Part shown: positions 2,798 through 18,401 of the stretch, piece by piece
Layout of the letters: each line of letters starts with the position of its first letter
Numbering within the stretch: position 1 is the first letter of the stretch
Source: Fidelibacterota bacterium 408169
Lineage (GTDB): Bacteria > Fidelibacterota > Marinisomatia > Marinisomatales > TCS55
NCBI GenBank assembly: GCA_002256485.1
Contig: NNSG01000001.1
Coordinates: 252,017 to 316,016, forward strand
Direction of reading: 5' to 3'
Length of the DNA: 64,000 nucleotides
The notes under the pieces: model-generated
Seen by the model: only the letters and a program-made list of their open reading frames with translations
Databases searched by the model: none
What the model was told of the DNA's origin: nothing
Position numbers and translations under genes: made by a program

Positions 2798-4615
2798 TTG
2801 GCCTTCTAAATCCGGATACTCATCTACGGCATCGGACCATTTAGAAAGATCAGAAATCCGTTGTTTCGGATCAGATGGAATTTCCATAGGTCGCCCGCGT
2901 CCATCAAAAATAATTCCCACAACTCCGCCATAAATTGTGGTTTCAATCAGTTCATTCTTCCCTGCGCCAATATCCATTCCTTTTCCAGGTGTAAGTGTAG
3001 CTTTTACAGGCTCGTATGGAACTTCAATTCTGATAATATCACCGTATTTAATTTCATGTTTTTGAATATCACCGTTTGGCAATTTTAATTCTGCCATCAA
3101 AACGGTTGCGCCCGGCTTAGCATTTCCAACAGGGGCAAGACACGTACCTAAACGGATCAGGCAGTCTTTTTCAAAAACTTCTATAGCTGCATTCCGGGCG
3201 TCTTCTGCCAATTCTTCTTTTTCGATATTCGCCATAACACCAAGCTGGGGCATCATAAAAATTGAATCCACCGCTAATTGAGTAATTCCTTCAGGGAGAA
3301 AACTATCGATTAGCATTCTTGCGGATTGTTCACGTCGTGGAGCATGAGATAAAACGCCTCCAGATCCAACCATTAAATCTAATTCCATCATATCTACTAA
3401 TGATTCGCCGGAATCCGTTTGTTCAAAAGCATCGGATATAGTCCGCTCTTTTTGGACGCCCTTCAGATTTACTGCAAATGACTTATGCTGGATAAAGGAC
3501 AAACGCAATGCTTCCCGTGCAATTGCTTGCTCAATAACCAATTCTTCCAGACTTTGAGGAACTGTAGTTGGTCGAATCATTTTATTCCCTATACGATTCG
3601 TTAATTCCTTTTCATCAATATCAAACGGCACCCAGCGTAATACATTTTTTAAGCCGGATTCAGCAAGCACATTGCAAATAGAGTAGCTCATACCCAGATT
3701 AGCACTAACGGTTCGATTAAATTGTTTTTGGAATACGGAAAAAATATCAGTCGTTGCTCCGCCAATATCAACACCGACGACGGAAATATTTTCCTTTTCA
3801 GCTACCATTTCAATTAAGGCTCCAACAGCACCTGGTGTTGGCATAATGGGAGCATCAGTCCAAGACATGAGCTTTTTATAACCGGGAGCCTGCTGCATAA
3901 CGTGCTCCATAAAAAGATCGTGAATTTTATCCCGGGATGGTTTCAAGTTTTCCATCTCTAATACGGGACGTATATTTTCAGTCAAATCAAGATCGGTAAT
4001 TTCACCAAGTGTTTCTTCGATTTTATCTGCTGCGTTTTTATTTCCGGCATAAATAACCGGTAATTTGTAATTTTGACCTAATCTTGGTTTTGGATTTGCT
4101 GCAGCTAAAATTTCTGCAAGCTCAACCACGTGTTTGGTGGTTCCGCCGTCAATCCCTCCGGAAAGTAAAATCATATCGGGACGTAGCTGGCGAATTCGTG
4201 TAATTTTTTCATGTGGTTTTCGACCATCATTGGATGCCAATACATCCATAACTATAGAACCAGCACCAAGAGCAGCACGTTCAGCAGATTCGCCTGTCAT
4301 GCCTTTCACTACACCAGCAACCATCATCTGCAATCCGCCACCAGCTGAACTTGTGGAAATATAAATATCTACACCTTCCTCATCATTTCGAGGTGTAATT
4401 ATATTATCGCCGTCTAACAATTTACGTCCGGCTAATTCCTCCACTTCCATGACGGCGTTTAAAACACCTTTAGTCACATCTTCAAAAGGTGCTTCTACAG
4501 TCGTAGGTGCTTCACCTCTGACAGAAAGGCGATATTCGCCATCAATTTTTTCTATCAGAATCGCTTTGGTCGTTGTACTACCGCAATCTGTGGCGAGTAT
4601 TGATCTTAATTCCAT
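2786..4615 (-). CDS. MutL-family ASKHA ATPase (glutamate mutase L-like)
   Basis: 609 residues. Two ASKHA phosphate-binding motifs are visible: DCGSTTTK at residues 10-17 and DIGGATTD at 283-290, plus a glycine-rich LLSGGIDGG at about 150-158. This is the layout of the glutamate mutase MutL family, which sits beside adenosylcobalamin-dependent mutases in clostridia and is thought to act as a reactivating or chaperone-like ATPase. No mutase subunit (GlmE/GlmS or MutS/MutE) occurs in this window. The gene begins 33 bases below cdsA. Its stop codon lies inside the repeat that borders the inserted four-helix gene, so its last residues may have been changed by that insertion. The true substrate here is unknown. 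Confidence 0.88.
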   Translation of the reverse strand: MELRSILATDCGSTTTKAILIEKIDGEYRLSVRGEAPTTVEAPFEDVTKGVLNAVMEVEELAGRKLLDGDNIITPRNDEEGVDIYISTSSAGGGLQMMVAGVVKGMTGESAERAALGAGSIVMDVLASNDGRKPHEKITRIRQLRPDMILLSGGIDGGTTKHVVELAEILAAANPKPRLGQNYKLPVIYAGNKNAADKIEETLGEITDLDLTENIRPVLEMENLKPSRDKIHDLFMEHVMQQAPGYKKLMSWTDAPIMPTPGAVGALIEMVAEKENISVVGVDIGGATTDIFSVFQKQFNRTVSANLGMSYSICNVLAESGLKNVLRWVPFDIDEKELTNRIGNKMIRPTTVPQSLEELVIEQAIAREALRLSFIQHKSFAVNLKGVQKERTISDAFEQTDSGESLVDMMELDLMVGSGGVLSHAPRREQSARMLIDSFLPEGITQLAVDSIFMMPQLGVMANIEKEELAEDARNAAIEVFEKDCLIRLGTCLAPVGNAKPGATVLMAELKLPNGDIQKHEIKYGDIIRIEVPYEPVKATLTPGKGMDIGAGKNELIETTIYGGVVGIIFDGRGRPMEIPSDPKQRISDLSKWSDAVDEYPDLEGQGLE

Positions 4616-8676: not shown

Positions 8677-10521
8677 TTAATGAACTTTTGATTTAATAAC
8701 TTCAGTTTTCTTATTCTCATCGATTTCTTGATTTGAAAGAGAATCTTGTTCTGTTTCAAAAACAGGTTCTTCAGGTAATGTATCCTTTTTCACTTCCATA
8801 ATGGTTTGATTTAATATTGTATACCGACTCAGCGAAGCCTCAGCTTGTTCAGAATCTTTGTAATTATCATTAAGCCAAGAATAATATTTTAATGCACTGT
8901 CCTGTTTAAAAAATGTGTAATCATAATGATAAGCTAAAAAGTATGCAGCTCTGGCAGCCGTTTCACTCTGGCTTTCTTCATGGATTATTTTCCTGTAAAA
9001 TGTTAAGGCGTTTGCGGGATTCACCAGCCATTCCAATTCTCCCTGTCTGAGCATTGCTTGTACAGATTCCGAATCTAAAGGCAAGTCTAATGTTTTTCGT
9101 AAATAATCAGCATATTCCGAAGAAGGTAATTCTTCTAATATTCTCTTGCTGTAAATATCAGCTGATTCCGTATTGCCATTTGAAAAATGGATATAATACA
9201 AAACAAAGAGAGATTTCGGATAAAATTCGGATTCAGGAAATTCATCGACAATTCTATGAAAATGCATCATAGAAGAATCCTGCCGCTTAAAGTGAAAAGC
9301 TTCCAATTCGCCCAAATTATAAAGATGATTTGAAATAGACAACTCCGAAATATATAAATTCTCTTCCTGAACTTTTTTTAGTGAATCATTTTCAAGTGTG
9401 TCCAATGCAGTTTTGATTTGTACATTGCTTTCTTCCAATGAAGAAATTTCAGTTAGAGATTCTTGGTATTCTGTGATTTCCTTGGCCCGTAAATTAGCCG
9501 TAGATGTAAATGTAGATTGCCGAAATTCTCGCGAAACCTGGCCAAAATATTTTTCTGCATTTACAAGATCCCATTGGTCATATAATGAAATTTCTCCATG
9601 GATAAAATATGCTTCTGCGGATGTCTTCGAATTTTTATAATCTTCTTTTATTGATTCAATACGCGTGATAGCTTCTTCAATCTGGTAATCCATTTGATAA
9701 AGTTTGACTAATTCCAACTCAAGATCACCATGAATTGATGAATAAATATTGTCCAGCAGCATTGATTTAATCAAACTTTTCACTTTATCCCAATTACCCA
9801 ATAAACGATGGATCCGGACGATTTGCAGATTTGCTTCTTCCTTTCGCTTTTTGGATGGTGTGTTTTTTACTACTTCTTCATTCGCTGTCAATGCCTGCTC
9901 GTAGTTTTCTGCTCTAAAAGCAAGATCAGCGATTCTAAAATATATTTGACCCCGTTCATTTTTGTTTTTATTCGTTTCTGCAGCTAAAACAAGATGTTCC
10001 AGAGCTTCGCCCGGTTTGTCTGTTTCCAAGTATATTTCAGCAATAGCCAGATGTATTTTAGAAATAAAATCATTATCATTTGATGCATTCAACATAGATT
10101 GTAAAACTTCTAAAGCAGGTTGAGGCTTTCCTAATTTCCACTTACATAATGCCAGCCAAAATTCTGCTTCTTCCATATCGTCACTATATAATTCTGTATA
10201 TTGATTAAATAATAATTCAGCGATACGATATTCTTTGCGATGAAACCTGGCTTTCCCAATAATCAGCCTGGCATCTTGAACATATTTAGAATCAGGATAT
10301 TTATCGATCACATGTTGTGACTTTTCAATAACCTTACCATATGCATCAATTGCTGCCGGGGGAATGGATTCTCCTGCTTTTTCAAGGCGTTGTTTTTCTG
10401 CCTTTTCAAAATACAGCTGAGCATTATAAAACGTGTTGAAATACGCACATGATGAAAATATGAGAAGTGAAATCGTAATGATTAAGCGGGTTATGGGGCA
10501 GATCTGCTGTTTACAGGTCAT
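8677..10521 (-). CDS. Large TPR lipoprotein, function unknown
   Basis: 614 residues. The N-terminus is a lipoprotein signal peptide with a lipobox near IFSSCAYFNTFYNAQLYFEK, so the mature protein starts at Cys26. The rest is a long run of tetratricopeptide-like helices, for example YFRIADLAFRAENYEQALT and YFIHGEISLYDQWDLVNAEK. The first 150 residues resemble BamD-type solenoids; the C-terminus is acidic and low in complexity. Proteins that begin CAYFNTFYNA recur in FCB bacteria and are usually left hypothetical. It may act as a periplasmic scaffold. It stands 17 bases upstream of pyrK and diverges from the PEGA-like gene across 10522-10611. Confidence 0.8.
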   Translation of the reverse strand: MTCKQQICPITRLIITISLLIFSSCAYFNTFYNAQLYFEKAEKQRLEKAGESIPPAAIDAYGKVIEKSQHVIDKYPDSKYVQDARLIIGKARFHRKEYRIAELLFNQYTELYSDDMEEAEFWLALCKWKLGKPQPALEVLQSMLNASNDNDFISKIHLAIAEIYLETDKPGEALEHLVLAAETNKNKNERGQIYFRIADLAFRAENYEQALTANEEVVKNTPSKKRKEEANLQIVRIHRLLGNWDKVKSLIKSMLLDNIYSSIHGDLELELVKLYQMDYQIEEAITRIESIKEDYKNSKTSAEAYFIHGEISLYDQWDLVNAEKYFGQVSREFRQSTFTSTANLRAKEITEYQESLTEISSLEESNVQIKTALDTLENDSLKKVQEENLYISELSISNHLYNLGELEAFHFKRQDSSMMHFHRIVDEFPESEFYPKSLFVLYYIHFSNGNTESADIYSKRILEELPSSEYADYLRKTLDLPLDSESVQAMLRQGELEWLVNPANALTFYRKIIHEESQSETAARAAYFLAYHYDYTFFKQDSALKYYSWLNDNYKDSEQAEASLSRYTILNQTIMEVKKDTLPEEPVFETEQDSLSNQEIDENKKTEVIKSKVH

Positions 10522-10611
10522 TTTTCAAGCGGGAAATTCGCTGTCTTTTTGATTAAATCCAATGAATTAACTTGTTGGACTGATTTAGTTTGCAGAATAA
10601 TTTTCATTACT

Positions 10612-11052
10612 ATGTTTTCTCGGTCTACACTCATTTACGCCATTTTTCTTTCTTCTGTCTCAATCGTATTCTCATCTAATCCAGATACGACTGAAAAGAT
10701 CCAGGAAACAGGTTATATTTTTCCTACATGCGATAATTTAGGGATTGTACTCTTTGTGGATGGTGTGGAAGTAGGGAAATCTCCCTTAGGTCATCCGATT
10801 CCTGTATTAGCCGGATTTCATGAGGTTGGATATGCACCACCGAATATCGTTGATGAATATGTTAAAGCACGATTACATCAGGCCATTAAGCGAGTGTATG
10901 TTCCCATCGGAGATACTGTGAATGTTATTTTGCATTTTGATCATGAATACACTCAGTTCAGAGCGTTGCGTACGGAACATTCGATAACACAGTATATCGG
11001 TATGATGATGACTATATCTGCAGCATATCTTTTTTGGCGCATTTCGGGTTGA
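10612..11052 (+). CDS. Exported PEGA-like small protein
   Basis: 146 residues from the ATG at 10612; the frame is open 63 bases further upstream, but this ATG gives a clean signal peptide (MFSRSTLIYAIFLSSVSIVF). The mature part has a PEGA-like pattern, GIVLFVDGVEVGKSPLG followed by VLAGFHEVGYAPP, a carbohydrate- or surface-associated beta fold. A hydrophobic segment near the C-terminus (TQYIGMMMTISAAYLFWRI) may anchor it in the membrane. It is the first of two rightward genes and is divergent from the TPR lipoprotein gene. The role is unknown. Confidence 0.7.
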   Translation: MFSRSTLIYAIFLSSVSIVFSSNPDTTEKIQETGYIFPTCDNLGIVLFVDGVEVGKSPLGHPIPVLAGFHEVGYAPPNIVDEYVKARLHQAIKRVYVPIGDTVNVILHFDHEYTQFRALRTEHSITQYIGMMMTISAAYLFWRISG

Positions 11053-11094
11053 TTTGAGCTATTATTGTGTAAGAAAATTTTCTTAATTTTTGAT

Positions 11095-11298
11095 ATGGAT
11101 AAATTTACAACTTACGACCCTGCAATCAAATTTCGCGAAGAATATACATGGCCTGAAAAAGGGACAAAAAGAAATTGCCCGAAATGCGAAACATACATGC
11201 AGCTCAATGAAAAGAATGAAACATATTTCGGAAAACCCTGGTGGTGTCCAAAATGCTCGTGGCAGTTTTCCGAGGAAGAGTTAGTAGATCAAGCTTGA
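11095..11298 (+). CDS. Small zinc-ribbon protein
   Basis: 67 residues from the ATG at 11095. Two CPKC knuckles, at NCPKCETYMQ and WWCPKCSWQF, would bind one zinc ion. It probably belongs to the broad class of small cytosolic zinc ribbons of unknown role. A longer frame starts at 11065, but the ATG at 11095 removes an unlikely hydrophobic prefix. Its last 10 bases overlap the end of the convergent DUF1232 gene. Confidence 0.65.
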   Translation: MDKFTTYDPAIKFREEYTWPEKGTKRNCPKCETYMQLNEKNETYFGKPWWCPKCSWQFSEEELVDQA

Positions 11299-12954: not shown

Positions 12955-13626
12955 TTAAAATAAGGTTTTCTGATCAATGTGTAAGATTGAAATATCATTA
13001 TTCTTCGGTGAATTTACACGTTTCGAAACTGGATAGGCATTCATCTCTTTTTCGTCATATGGTTTAAGTAAATGAATGACTTCTTCAAGCGGCTCATCAG
13101 AGATCCACACTTTTTCCATTTCTGGGGTGAGCATGACCGGCATTCGGTTATGAATGGGTTTCATTAGATCATTGGGTTCGGTCGTAATAATGGTGAATGT
13201 TCGCACGTCCCTCCCGTCGGGTGCATTCCACGATTCCCACAAACCGGCAAACGTAAAGAGGCTTTCATCGGATAATGTGATACGATAGGGCTGTTTTTCG
13301 CTCCCTGAACGCTGCCATTCGTAAAATCCGTCCGATATGACTAAACAACGCCTTTTTTCCGCTGTATCTCGAAATGAGGGCTTTTCTGCGATGGTCTCGC
13401 CTCGGGCATTGATGAGTTTATTGCCAATACGTTCATCTTTCGCCCAATGAGGTATCAGTCCCCATTTGTGGAATGACGCCTGTTCCGGAGCTTCATTGGT
13501 GATGATGGGCAATATTTGGGAAGGTGCGGCATTGTAGTTCTTGGTGAACATGGCCGGATCGATATGGATCTCGAACCTATCCTCGATCTCATCTTTTTCT
13601 TTACTGATGGAAAAGCGCCCGCACAT
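12955..13626 (-). CDS. SRAP (HMCES/YedK) abasic-site crosslinking protein
   Basis: 223 residues. The catalytic Cys2 follows the initiator Met (MCGRFS). Other family blocks are YNAAPSQILPI, KWGLIPHWAK, NARGETIAEKPSF, SDGFYEWQ and HNRMPVML with the catalytic histidine. SRAP proteins form a thiazolidine crosslink with abasic sites in single-stranded DNA and shield them during replication. Base composition is richer in G+C than the genes to the left, as is the Y-family polymerase operon nearby; both concern damaged DNA, so they may have arrived together. A half copy of a dispersed repeat begins just upstream (13639-13672). Confidence 0.93.
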   Translation of the reverse strand: MCGRFSISKEKDEIEDRFEIHIDPAMFTKNYNAAPSQILPIITNEAPEQASFHKWGLIPHWAKDERIGNKLINARGETIAEKPSFRDTAEKRRCLVISDGFYEWQRSGSEKQPYRITLSDESLFTFAGLWESWNAPDGRDVRTFTIITTEPNDLMKPIHNRMPVMLTPEMEKVWISDEPLEEVIHLLKPYDEKEMNAYPVSKRVNSPKNNDISILHIDQKTLF

Positions 13627-13672: not shown

Positions 13673-13693
13673 AATATTATATCCCTATCTATA

Positions 13694-13714
13694 TCTTCCC
13701 CACATTGGGGAAGA
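13694..13714. other. Perfect 8-bp hairpin TCTTCCCC/GGGGAAGA
   Basis: An 8-bp perfect stem with a five-base ACATT loop, between the SRAP gene and the DUF559 cassette. No U-tract follows on either strand, so it is more likely part of the repeat complex than a terminator. Confidence 0.5.
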
Positions 13715-13743
13715 CCCAAATTTTTGGAAGAGGAGGATTTTGT

Positions 13744-13786
13744 CCCCTCCTTTTTGTTCAAGGAGGGGATGTGGGGTGGTTAACAG
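13744..13786. repeat. 43-bp hairpin-bearing repeat, left copy
   Basis: Contains a 9-bp stem (CCCCTCCTT/AAGGAGGGG) with loop TTTGTTC, followed by GTGGGGTGGTTAACAG. A second direct copy with 37 of 43 bases identical by eye lies at 14231-14273. The pair brackets the DUF559 gene. The GGGTGGTT motif also recurs inverted, as AACCACCC at 14180-14187. Confidence 0.85.
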
Positions 13787-13794
13787 TATTCAAA

Positions 13795-14172
13795 TTATGA
13801 ATTACTTAATTCTTTACACTTATCAGTAATAATTGTTAATACACCATCCATACTTTCATCTATTTCATTATTATAAAATCGTATTATATGATAACCCAAA
13901 TTATTTAACCTTCCTTCTCGTTCTTTATCTTCTTTTTTTGCTTTTGGTGATAAATGACCCGAACCATCCAACTCAACTATCAATTTTACTTTAGGACAAC
14001 AAAAATCAACTATATCATTTTCAATTCCCTGCTGTCTTCTAAATTTGAATCCATCCAATTGACTGCCTTTTAAATAATTCCAGAGTTTTTGCTCCCATGG
14101 TGTTGGGAAATTTCTTAATAATCTTCTAACTGACTTTTGCTTTTTGGGATTGATGCGGTGTTTTTTCATCAT
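13795..14172 (-). CDS. DUF559 (Vsr-like PD-(D/E)XK) endonuclease-domain protein
   Basis: 125 residues. The nuclease core reads FRRQQGIENDIVDFCCPKVK then LIVELDGSGH, giving the D...ExD pattern of the very-short-patch-repair/type II restriction fold. A basic N-terminus (KKHRINPKKQK) may contact DNA. DUF559 proteins are widespread, usually stand-alone and uncharacterised. The gene lies alone between direct and inverted GC-rich hairpin repeats (13744-13786, 14180-14217, 14231-14273), which suggests a small mobile or homing-type unit. No transposase or partner methylase is visible. Confidence 0.88.
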   Translation of the reverse strand: MMKKHRINPKKQKSVRRLLRNFPTPWEQKLWNYLKGSQLDGFKFRRQQGIENDIVDFCCPKVKLIVELDGSGHLSPKAKKEDKEREGRLNNLGYHIIRFYNNEIDESMDGVLTIITDKCKELSNS

Positions 14173-14179
14173 TTATCTC

Positions 14180-14217
14180 AACCACCCTGAAATCCCTCCT
14201 TACCATAAGGAGGGATT
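14180..14217. repeat. Inverted repeat with 12-bp hairpin, right of DUF559 gene
   Basis: AACCACCC (14180-14187) is the reverse complement of GGGTGGTT in the left copy. It is followed by a perfect 12-bp stem AATCCCTCCTTA/TAAGGAGGGATT with loop CCA. Together with the left copy it forms inverted borders facing the DUF559 gene. Confidence 0.8.
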
Positions 14218-14230
14218 TACGTTTTTTTAT

Positions 14231-14273
14231 CCACTCCTTCTTGTTCAAGGAGGGGTTATGGAGTGGTTATCAG
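14231..14273. repeat. 43-bp hairpin-bearing repeat, right copy
   Basis: Direct copy of 13744-13786 with six mismatches by eye. Its stem is CCACTCCTT/AAGGAGGGG with loop CTTGTTC, and it ends GGAGTGGTTATCAG. A weaker related hairpin (TCCCTCTT...AAAGGGGGA) follows at about 14297-14315. These hairpins lie at the 3' end of umuC and could also stop its transcript. Confidence 0.8.
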
Positions 14274-14325
14274 AATTTTGCGAATCAAAATTTAAGTCCC
14301 TCTTATCAAAGGGGGAATATTTCGT

Positions 14326-15588
14326 TTACACGGTGATGGTCATAAAGTCGGCCCAGCGGGTGGTATAACACGGCGAAAGCCGTTCCTGGCGGAGTGTCCA
14401 TCGGCGGGCAAAACCCTGTTCTGCCACACGCAATACGTCCCGGCCTTCTCTGTCGTTCACCTTATCCATGGCAGTCATGAGGCGCATGTGGCGGTCCTCA
14501 TCCGTGGGATGAAATAAATTGTACTGAACCGTGTTGGCGGGCACCAGTCCGCTGACGATGACTCCGGCCTTTTTATACTGGTACCCTTCCCGGTAAATGG
14601 ACTCCAAACCCCGCAGCGCTGCCTGGACGACGGTCAGGGTACTATTGGACGCCACCGGCAGGCGCGCACACCGGACATTCTTATACTGGGGAAGGTCCGG
14701 GCGAAAGGGATTGGTGTGGAGAAAAACGTTTACGAGATTGGTACAGGAATTCTGTGTACGCAGCTTTTCGGCGCAGCGGGTGGCATACATGGAGACGGCC
14801 TGTTTTAATTCATCCAGTTCTGTGACCATAGTGCCGAAGGAACGGGACGTGCAAATCTCTTTCTTCTTCTGGGGCTGATCCTCTAATGGAATGCATGGCT
14901 CTCCTTTCAATTCTTTCTGGAGTCGCAGTCCCACCACGGTCATATTTTCTTTTATCCAGCCTTCCGGCATGCGCCGCAGGTCCCAGGCCGTATTGATTCC
15001 CCAGGAACGTAAAAAACGGGCATACCTCCGCCCCACGCCCCACAGCTTTTCCACAGGCAGTTTTTTCAGGCAATATTCAATGGTTTCTTCCTTGGTCAAA
15101 ACGCAGACACCGGAATCGTCCGGGAGGCGTTTGGCAATGTGGTTGGCCACCTTGGCCAATGTTTTGGTAGGCGCCACGCCAATGGACACAGGAATACCCG
15201 TCCACTGTTTCACTGTTTTTCGCAAATTGGACCCGAACCGATCCATTCCATCGGCCGTGAGGCCACTGCAATCCAAAAATGCCTCATCAATGGAATATAT
15301 CTCCATGGCGGCGCTGTGGTGGGCCAGGGTGCGCATGACCCGCTGGGACATATCGCCATAGAGTGCAAAATTGGAGGAAAAGACGGCCACGTTGTGCCTG
15401 GCGTAGACATCCTCTTTCTTAAAGGCCGGCTCGCCCATGGCAATGCCCAAGGCCTTGGCCTCGTTGGACCGGGCAATGACACAGCCGTCATTATTGGACA
15501 GGACCACAATGGGCCGCTCCTCCAGCCGGGGATCAAAAACCCGCTCGCAGGAGGCGTAAAAATTATTGCAGTCAACGAGGGCGTACAT
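14326..15588 (-). CDS. umuC: Y-family DNA polymerase V catalytic subunit
   Basis: 420 residues, full length for UmuC. The polymerase motifs are intact: [20 protein letters not shown] with the first catalytic aspartate, [20 protein letters not shown], and [10 protein letters not shown] with the second acidic pair. The HhH and little-finger regions and the C-terminal UmuC domain follow. It carries out translesion synthesis together with processed UmuD. It is G+C-rich compared with the flanking genome and uses many GC-ending codons, a sign of transfer. It follows the CoA-transferase gene by two bases and lies at the end of the umuD-caiB-umuC unit. Confidence 0.96.
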
Positions 15589-17670: not shown

Positions 17671-17922
17671 CTAAAATCTTTGTTGGATGATTCTCTTCTT
17701 TAGGATTGTTTTCCCTGATCCTGTTTTAAAATATTTTTCCAAACGTTTAGCTTTTTGCTCTGTTGTCACGGCTACATAGGCACTTAATTTTAAAGGGAGA
17801 AACGCTTTAGTAGATTGAGTTTTACCATCTGAATGTTCTATAATCCGTCGATTTAAATCATTTGTATAACCGATATAAATAAAACTCTTATTATTATTTT
17901 CCAATGCATATACATACCACAT
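17671..17922 (-). CDS. GIY-YIG nuclease-domain protein
   Basis: 83 residues, a single GIY-YIG domain. The motifs are MWYVYALENNNKSFIYIGYT (the split Y-Y and YIG strands), the catalytic arginine in NLNRRIIEH and the metal-binding glutamate in RLEKYFKTG. It resembles the small stand-alone YhbQ/UvrC-like family, whose targets are mostly unknown. It lies between a tRNA-Ser 3' fragment (17618-17630) and the complete tRNA-Ser gene (18260-18353). Short GIY-YIG genes next to tRNA-Ser ends are, from memory, a recurring arrangement. A homing-type role is a reasonable guess. Confidence 0.9.
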   Translation of the reverse strand: MWYVYALENNNKSFIYIGYTNDLNRRIIEHSDGKTQSTKAFLPLKLSAYVAVTTEQKAKRLEKYFKTGSGKTILKKRIIQQRF

Positions 17923-17996: not shown

Positions 17997-18020
17997 TTGT
18001 ACTACTTTCGGTTGCTGTTT

Positions 18021-18255
18021 GTTAGCACGTCAACCATCTATCCCAAAAAGGAATACACAGTTGGCTAGCCAACCGAAGATTCCAGTGTCCGTGGGGCGGT
18101 TGGCACGCCGACCGAAGATCCCAGTGTCCGTGGGGCGGTTGGCACGCCGACCGAAGATCCCAGTGTCCGTGGGGCGGTTGGCACGCCGACCGAAGATCCC
18201 AGTGTCCGTGGGGCGGTTGGCACGCCGACCGAAGATCCCGACTTTGTCGGGACGC
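18021..18255. repeat. 39-bp tandem array next to tRNA-Ser
   Basis: Units start at 18061, 18100, 18139, 18178 and 18217 with an exact 39-bp period; the inner copies are nearly identical (TTGGCACGCCGACCGAAGAT, then CCCAGTGTCCGTGGGGCGG). A decayed unit lies at about 18021 and another at about 17952, so copies are older and more AT-rich further from the tRNA. The last unit breaks off into a hairpin. There are no variable spacers, so it is not a CRISPR. The plus-strand frame through it only repeats a 13-residue peptide and then reads the tRNA, so I do not count it as a gene. This and 17923-18020 are the only gene-free stretch over 300 bases. Confidence 0.88.
18236..18252 (-). terminator. Hairpin just downstream of tRNA-Ser
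   Basis: TCCCGACAAAGTCGGGA on the minus strand: a 7-bp perfect stem with a three-base loop, 7 bases past the tRNA 3' end. No U-tract follows, so it may be a processing or weak termination hairpin. Confidence 0.35.
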
Positions 18256-18259
18256 AGGT

Positions 18260-18353
18260 TGGCGGAGAGGGAGAGATTCGAACTCTCGAACCAGGTTATC
18301 CCCGATTACTCACTTAGCAGGCGAGCGCCTTCAGCCAGCTCGGCCACCTCTCC
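18260..18353 (-). tRNA. tRNA-Ser, anticodon GCU
   Basis: 94 nt class II tRNA. The acceptor arms are GGAGAGG and CCTCTCC, discriminator G, and CCA is encoded. The anticodon arm is CTCGC-CTGCTAA-GTGAG, giving anticodon GCU for AGC/AGU serine codons. A long variable arm and TTCGAAT T-loop are present. The 3' end abuts the tandem array, and 13 bases of it recur at 17618-17630. dprA ends 48 bases upstream. Confidence 0.95.
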
Positions 18354-18401
18354 AAGTTTTGTTAATATGTTTATTTTACGGCGGTGAAATTAGCAATCCG
18401 A

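Follow-up and report, generated by a model that had tools for sequence, protein, structure and literature searches.

The locus: a DUF559 gene between two gene-facing hairpin units

The window (the whole stretch of 64,000 nucleotides analysed here) carries a DUF559 gene between an SRAP gene and a umuC-like DNA polymerase gene (Table 1). The score of its product exceeds the curated cut-off of the PF04480 model, which confirms the DUF559 nuclease gene named in a preliminary description of this DNA. The units at the two ends of the gene share a common design, lie on opposite strands and both point at the gene. When the third segment of the left-hand unit is read antiparallel to the purine arm, 10 of 10 triads are G.G or T.A, with 0 mismatches. 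The hairpin on the right is perfect, as had been described, and its arms are 13 bp long, not 12 bp. The inverted borders AACCACCC/GGGTGGTT reported earlier are also present.

Two 43-bp copies had been described as bracketing the gene. This direct repeat is real and in fact spans 53 nt with 85% identity (13738-13790 and 14225-14277), but its second copy is a decayed neighbour outside the element, whose true ends are the two end units. When folded as single-stranded DNA, the two end hairpins score z = -3.6 and -5.5. At the second 43-bp copy the hairpin pairs are broken and 11 of 200 shuffles folded equally well or better; z was only -1.8, and we therefore consider this copy decayed. In the relative G005, a unit without the gene occupies the matching site and corresponds to this copy. 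Between SRAP and umuC, the window element lies beside a unit that is older.

Other features surround the element. The neighbouring triplex-type unit at 13683-13714 has no DUF559 gene of its own, and related units occur in G001 (L290, L291). G001 also has a perfect CCCCCTT-type unit in the intergenic region matching that of the degenerate palindrome. Elsewhere in the window, an ORF at 18019-18387 encodes short repeated amino-acid units (RRPKIPVSVGRLA) and spans a tandem array in the DNA. The genome is rich in GIY-YIG genes (10 matches; window example 17671-17922), which stand in tandem in relatives.

Table 1. Features of the DUF559 locus (positions in the window)
Feature	Position	Strand	Details
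SRAP gene	12955..13626	-	left anchor of polymorphic site
Putative triplex unit of another type, beside the element	13683..13714	-	TCTTCCCC/GGGGAAGA, third strand AGATAGGG
End unit, 3' side of DUF559 gene	13743..13781	+	Y arm TCCCCTCCTT 13743-13752; loop TTTGTTC; R arm AAGGAGGGGA 13760-13769; spacer TG; putative third strand TGGGGTGGTT 13772-13781
DUF559 gene, 125 aa	13795..14172	-	PF04480, E=2e-31, 108 bits vs cut-off 20.6
End unit, 5' side of DUF559 gene, gene-facing	14180..14218	-	hairpin AAATCCCTCCTTA/TAAGGAGGGATTT 14190-14218; putative third strand AGGGTGGTT 14180-14188 on - strand
Decayed neighbouring unit, second copy of 53-bp direct repeat	14225..14277	+	outside element
Degenerate palindrome TCCCTCTTATCAAAGGGGGA	14297..14316	.
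umuC-like DNA polymerase gene	14326..15588	-	right anchor of polymorphic site

The DUF559 protein resembles Vsr-type nucleases

DUF559 is an abundant family that is annotated as being of unknown function. Across 88 homologues, E27, W31, R46, Q47, D56, E67, D69, G70, H73 and D82 are invariant. These include the candidate EDxHD residues E27, D56, H73 and D82; the profile alignment starts after E27, and its identities over the motif are incomplete. The AlphaFold model of the 125-aa protein has a pLDDT of 94. Its best solved fold matches are a Neisseria DUF559 protein (3hrl) and the catalytic domain of I-Bth0305I (3r3p), with Vsr further down, and a profile search agreed on both 3hrl and 3r3p. For I-Bth0305I the profile E-value is 9e-6 and the fold TM-score, calculated with the AlphaFold model, is 0.69 over the target. 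The model thus predicts a Vsr/EDxHD-like nuclease fold, and we take the protein to be a predicted active nuclease.

Caulobacter VsrA likewise contains a DUF559 domain and is responsible for an SOS response in cells without a cytosine methyltransferase; it has been studied and proposed as a mismatch-repair nuclease tied to a methyltransferase, and not as part of a repeat element (PMC12907096). In Legionella, DUF559 segments are reported among recombination hotspots (PMC12308824).

The third segment of each unit covaries with its purine arm

The units consist of a pyrimidine-rich arm, a loop of 3-7 nt, a purine-rich arm that pairs with the first, a short spacer and, last, a segment rich in G and T(A), the third segment. 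We collected all pyrimidine/purine palindromes near DUF559 genes, whether or not a third segment followed, and obtained 175. A perfect antiparallel third strand was found on at least one side in 67% of them. Under comparison rules, 17% had a perfect parallel third segment and 1% had a perfect repeat of the purine arm, which rules out a parallel third strand or a second copy of the purine arm. When third segments were swapped in from other hairpins, the mean was 8.8% and the maximum 14.8%, counted for asymmetric arms only. Of 122 perfect units, 95 have a 3-nt spacer.

Arm sequences vary by lineage and include CCCCTCCTT, CCCCTCCTC, TCCCCCT, TTTCCCCT, CCCTCTCCC, CCCTCCCCTT and CCTTCCCC, among others. 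The matching third segments, in the same order, are GGGGTGGTT, GGGGTGGTG, TGGGGGT, AAAGGGGT, GGGTGAGGG, GGGTGGGGTA and GGATGGGG. Judged from sequence, these data suggest that the third segment is a purine-motif (reverse-Hoogsteen) antiparallel triplex strand for its own purine arm.

Arms also follow the protein. In G006 and G013, copies with different DUF559 proteins in one genome have different arms, and across loci arm similarity tracks DUF559 protein similarity (Mantel r = 0.195, 0 of 2000 permutations). The repeats therefore belong to the gene and not to the host.

A second palindrome was seen inside some units. At L066 (~3600-3641) a palindrome of ~42 bp (GCCTGCCCC...GGACAGGC) lies inside the hairpin of a DUF559 element, and G006 and G013 hold dozens more matches to it. 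The observation extends to L285, L328 and L330. Hairpin loops in G005 and G033 contain similar GCCTG..CAGGC palindromes, as though these loops were the target of a second repeat family.

Units and DUF559 genes are linked within this genome and across phyla

The pattern CCCTCCTT-N3..25-AAGGAGGG occurs twice in the window, compared to 0 times in 100 shuffles. The whole 2.47-Mb genome has only 7 such sites. Two are in the window and 4 surround the genome's one further DUF559 gene (contig C45; protein 87% identical); the seventh lies about 3.3 kb from this second gene. Since 6 of the 7 hairpin sites lie directly at the two DUF559 loci, the gene is tied to the repeat in this genome. The second DUF559 element (L012) is flanked by two identical direct repeats of ~60 bp (~1573-1632 and 2230-2289), each comprising a complete unit and 16-17 bp of upstream sequence.

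For a broader sample, we used 80 DUF559 loci from species genomes of many phyla, including Proteobacteria, Cyanobacteria, Patescibacteria, Bacteroidota, Planctomycetes, Chloroflexi, Spirochaetes, Nitrospirae and others as judged by record titles. In 67 of the 80, a perfect unit is found no further than 300 bp from the gene, a 31-fold enrichment; 42 of these loci have units on two sides and 25 on one side. At the other 13 genes, no perfect unit was found within 300 bp. Unit counts were 165 in 78 kb near genes versus 71 in 1031 kb away from them, and 236 in the real loci versus 1 when all loci were shuffled. With each of four control rules for the third segment, 2-9 units were counted near genes. 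Inward-facing units numbered 52 upstream and 47 downstream of the gene, and outward-facing units 25 and 27, partly because some palindromes have third strands on both sides.

The association is also specific to the gene family. Within the same phylum, 22 of 30 DUF559 loci had units, whereas 0 of 30 GIY-YIG loci did (p ~1e-8). DUF559 is present in 65 of 175 genomes of the phylum, with a patchy distribution and up to 6 copies. Over these 175 genomes, the commonest unit type was found in 26 of the 65 with DUF559 and in 12 of the 110 without detected DUF559 (p = 1e-5), G005 being one of the 12. By summed counts, 188 of 209 units fall in DUF559-bearing genomes of the phylum. Phage records gave just two distant DUF559 matches.

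Local duplication by chance is ruled out by the genome-wide and cross-phylum linkage. The preliminary description had proposed searching for the repeat near other DUF559 genes and for pairs at other loci; the link holds genome-wide and across phyla, and pairs recur.

Known triplex-forming repeats occur at DUF559 genes

E. coli and many other genomes have been known since 2000 to contain repeats that can form triplexes. Holder et al. described one G/C-rich type in >260 genomes in 2015, with 23 copies, including five inverted pairs, in MG1655 (PMC4666352). They demonstrated triplex formation by TM_ECO in vitro by CD and NMR, whereas DMS footprinting in vivo revealed no triplex at the E. coli units. 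The units were linked to genomic instability; no mobility activity was found near them, and their function was left open (PMC4666352).

The units described here resemble BOX C/PIT/TM_ECO in the order of Y arm, loop, R arm, 3-nt spacer and third strand, and both kinds form inverted pairs, are intergenic and vary between strains. In the unit at 13743-13781 we find the features of the TM/PIT class, namely three consecutive segments that could, by a double fold-back, form G.G:C and T.A:T or A.A:T triads. The window units thus probably belong to the intrastrand-triplex class BOX C/PIT/TM. What differs is that the units described here form the ends of a nuclease-gene element, with arm sequences that vary by lineage. 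The window arms, CCCCTCCTT and ATCCCTCCTT, do not match the consensus of TM_ECO / BOX C proper, CCCTCNCCC N3-6 GGGNGAGGG N3 GGGNGAGGG. Units of the consensus type are present at other DUF559 loci, such as L154 and L093.

In MG1655, ycjD (1351407-1351760) is a DUF559 gene that lies ~170 bp from TM_ECO no. 9 (1351204-1351239), and its 3' end is overlapped by a truncated unit. A long near-perfect inverted repeat, CACCTCATTCTGACA...TGTCAGAATGAGGTG, is located just upstream of ycjD, between ycjD and sapF (L056 ~2760-2802). In [Erwinia] mediterraneensis (L154), the DUF559 gene runs into a tandem array of exact BOX C-type units, with at least 7 tandem copies of ~103 bp at 10342-11130. We found no link between DUF559 and triplex repeats in the open-access literature (titles and combined searches), and no mobility gene for BOX C/PIT/TM is known in the searchable part of that literature.

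Elements vary in presence, completeness and number of hairpins

Gene-less, internally deleted and single-hairpin derivatives of the element exist. At the SRAP-umuC site, three genomes of the same genus lack the gene. G003 has neither gene nor unit, and G001 has no gene and a different unit. G005 has no gene and a solo unit; G004 has a solo unit, with the contig ending inside the hairpin. In G006, an element lies between a ribosomal-protein gene and guaB (the names rpsT and guaB were read from the sequence), and it is absent from the sister genome G013, where the flanks are 87% identical.

Copies are also found at unrelated sites. In G042, two 643-bp copies that are 99.4% identical lie 1.3 Mb apart; their flanks are unrelated, and the identity stops 6-8 bp outside the two hairpins. 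Tandem copies (~104 bp) of the element end and flank adjoin each of these elements (L191 3686-4540, L192). On a Synechocystis plasmid, the gene and its hairpins interrupt a DUF1156 methyltransferase gene whose homologues carry no such interruption. A base-exact empty site sought in those homologues was not obtained because they are only ~73% identical there.

Derivatives take several forms. In G033, several copies have the gene cut down to an internal fragment while the ends are intact. A many-copy MITE-like repeat with ends ATTGTATTTTCCA / TTGAAAAATACAAT occurs in G033 and G059 (L327-L330, L323-L326); some of its copies hold an internally deleted DUF559 element between hairpin arms and others do not. 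Three states of the paired BOX C units are seen at hrpB-mrcB in E. coli (two hairpins, one or none), and alx-sstT has two-hairpin and one-hairpin states. A long variant at alx-sstT (L233) proved to be unrelated sequence. Presence or absence of ycjD was rejected as a clean empty site because the three inspected strains without ycjD have an efflux-pump locus there.

These comparisons yielded neither a target-site duplication nor a base-exact empty site; the clean ones were between species at 80-88% identity. Each presence/absence case can be read as either gain or loss, and recombination or slippage alone could be the source of the single-hairpin states.

Discussion

These data suggest, with a probability of roughly two in three, that the window element belongs to a family of small, widespread mobile elements in which a DUF559 nuclease gene lies between two inward-facing triplex hairpins. 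It has been described as a REP/RAYT-style unit in which a nuclease replaces the transposase. That description fits in part: the unit is short and looks mobile, its sole gene encodes a PD-(D/E)XK-type nuclease, its ends are cognate palindromes, and gene-less copies exist. As in REP/RAYT (TnpA_REP), REPINs and BIMEs, one small protein of DNA-cleaving type is found with cognate palindromes around its gene, and gene-less copies are dispersed, in inverted pairs and in tandem arrays. However, the palindromes here are putative intrastrand-triplex units with a covarying third strand and not REPs, and no GTAG/GGAC-type tetranucleotide was found at the palindrome foot of the window units or of other units inspected. 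REP/RAYT has an HUH-tyrosine (Y1) transposase, whereas the protein here is DUF559 by Pfam with a predicted Vsr/I-Bth0305I fold. A nuclease without HUH/tyrosine chemistry would take the place of the transposase.

The EDxHD homing endonuclease I-Bth0305I, whose catalytic domain is Vsr-like, is similar in profile and fold and is likewise a selfish nuclease gene that is present or absent at a site. The DUF559 element differs in lying outside any intron, intein or conserved target gene, being intergenic between SRAP and umuC here and at variable sites elsewhere; its protein lacks extra DNA-binding modules, and structured repeats stand at its flanks. IS200/IS605 elements are also short, with structured subterminal ends and no classical inverted-repeat termini. 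They encode the HUH transposase TnpA, which the DUF559 element lacks, and the DUF559 end units are inverted and face the gene. Because both the HUH transposase and the intron or target-gene location are missing, we assign the element to neither REP/RAYT nor homing systems. Our best reading is a nuclease-driven mobile element that works like either of them.

We propose that the nuclease would recognise its cognate unit once one strand folds, for example on the lagging strand or in an extruded cruciform, and would cleave there. The hairpin units would thus be its substrate. The broken site could then be repaired by copying the element from another copy, in a homing-like manner. Such copying would spread the gene into existing units and build arrays, and the reverse event would collapse two hairpins to one. 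An EDxHD/Vsr-type nuclease alone cannot rejoin DNA, and host repair must therefore be assumed. We favour a homing-like cycle because it fits insertion next to or into existing units (the window site, the G042 arrays and C45), and because the fold similarity to a homing endonuclease and the states with one hairpin agree with it as well.

Subterminal structured ends, inverted end units and arrays would also be expected of single-strand transposition as in IS200/IS605 and REP/RAYT, in which an excised strand or circle held by two folded ends leaves the lagging strand and DUF559 cuts and joins together with host ligases. Units with third strands on both sides resemble joined ends, and E. coli pairs are reduced to one hairpin, as this mechanism would allow. 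However, the predicted Vsr/EDxHD fold is not that of the DNA-joining HUH-tyrosine enzymes of these systems (PMC6006769), and a conserved target tetranucleotide was not seen; we regard this route as unlikely. Alternatively, another enzyme could move the hairpin units in trans, with DUF559 a passenger, such as a gene for defence or addiction, that frequently ends up among them. Some genomes have units and no DUF559, units lie inside an unrelated MITE in G033, and DUF559-like nucleases are found in restriction contexts. A passenger is hard to reconcile with an association that recurs in many phyla with lineage-specific arms, that holds for DUF559 and not GIY-YIG, and in which arms track the protein and different DUF559 proteins in one genome have different arms. 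We consider it improbable.

The fold similarity to Vsr and the proposal for Caulobacter VsrA (PMC12907096) could instead point to a Vsr-like repair nuclease that processes hairpin structures, with gene and target adjacent for regulatory reasons and no mobility involved. A patchy multi-copy distribution, presence/absence and gene insertion are not expected of a housekeeping repair gene, and this explanation seems very unlikely to us. Least credible is a reading of the hairpins as ordinary terminators of transcription that flank a foreign gene, even with the T-run that follows the right-hand hairpin. Third strands are not a terminator feature, and the covariation between arm and third strand, together with the nearly constant 3-nt spacer, led us to reject terminators and attenuators. 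Earlier work, as cited by Holder et al., also found no terminator activity for E. coli units of the triplex class (PMC4666352).

Extending the nuclease-driven element to the known repeats, we lean slightly towards the view that the BOX C/PIT/TM repeats represent the termini, solo remnants and deletion derivatives of bacteria-wide mobile elements whose sole gene encodes a Vsr-fold DUF559 nuclease recognising its folded three-stranded cognate end. To our knowledge, triplex-forming repeats have no known origin or enzyme. If true, the link between these repeats and DUF559 would provide a source for the repeats and a job for the protein, and would describe a mobile element whose ends are apparently read as triplex DNA. 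The question is directly testable in E. coli K-12, which has one DUF559 gene, ycjD, and 23 such repeats.
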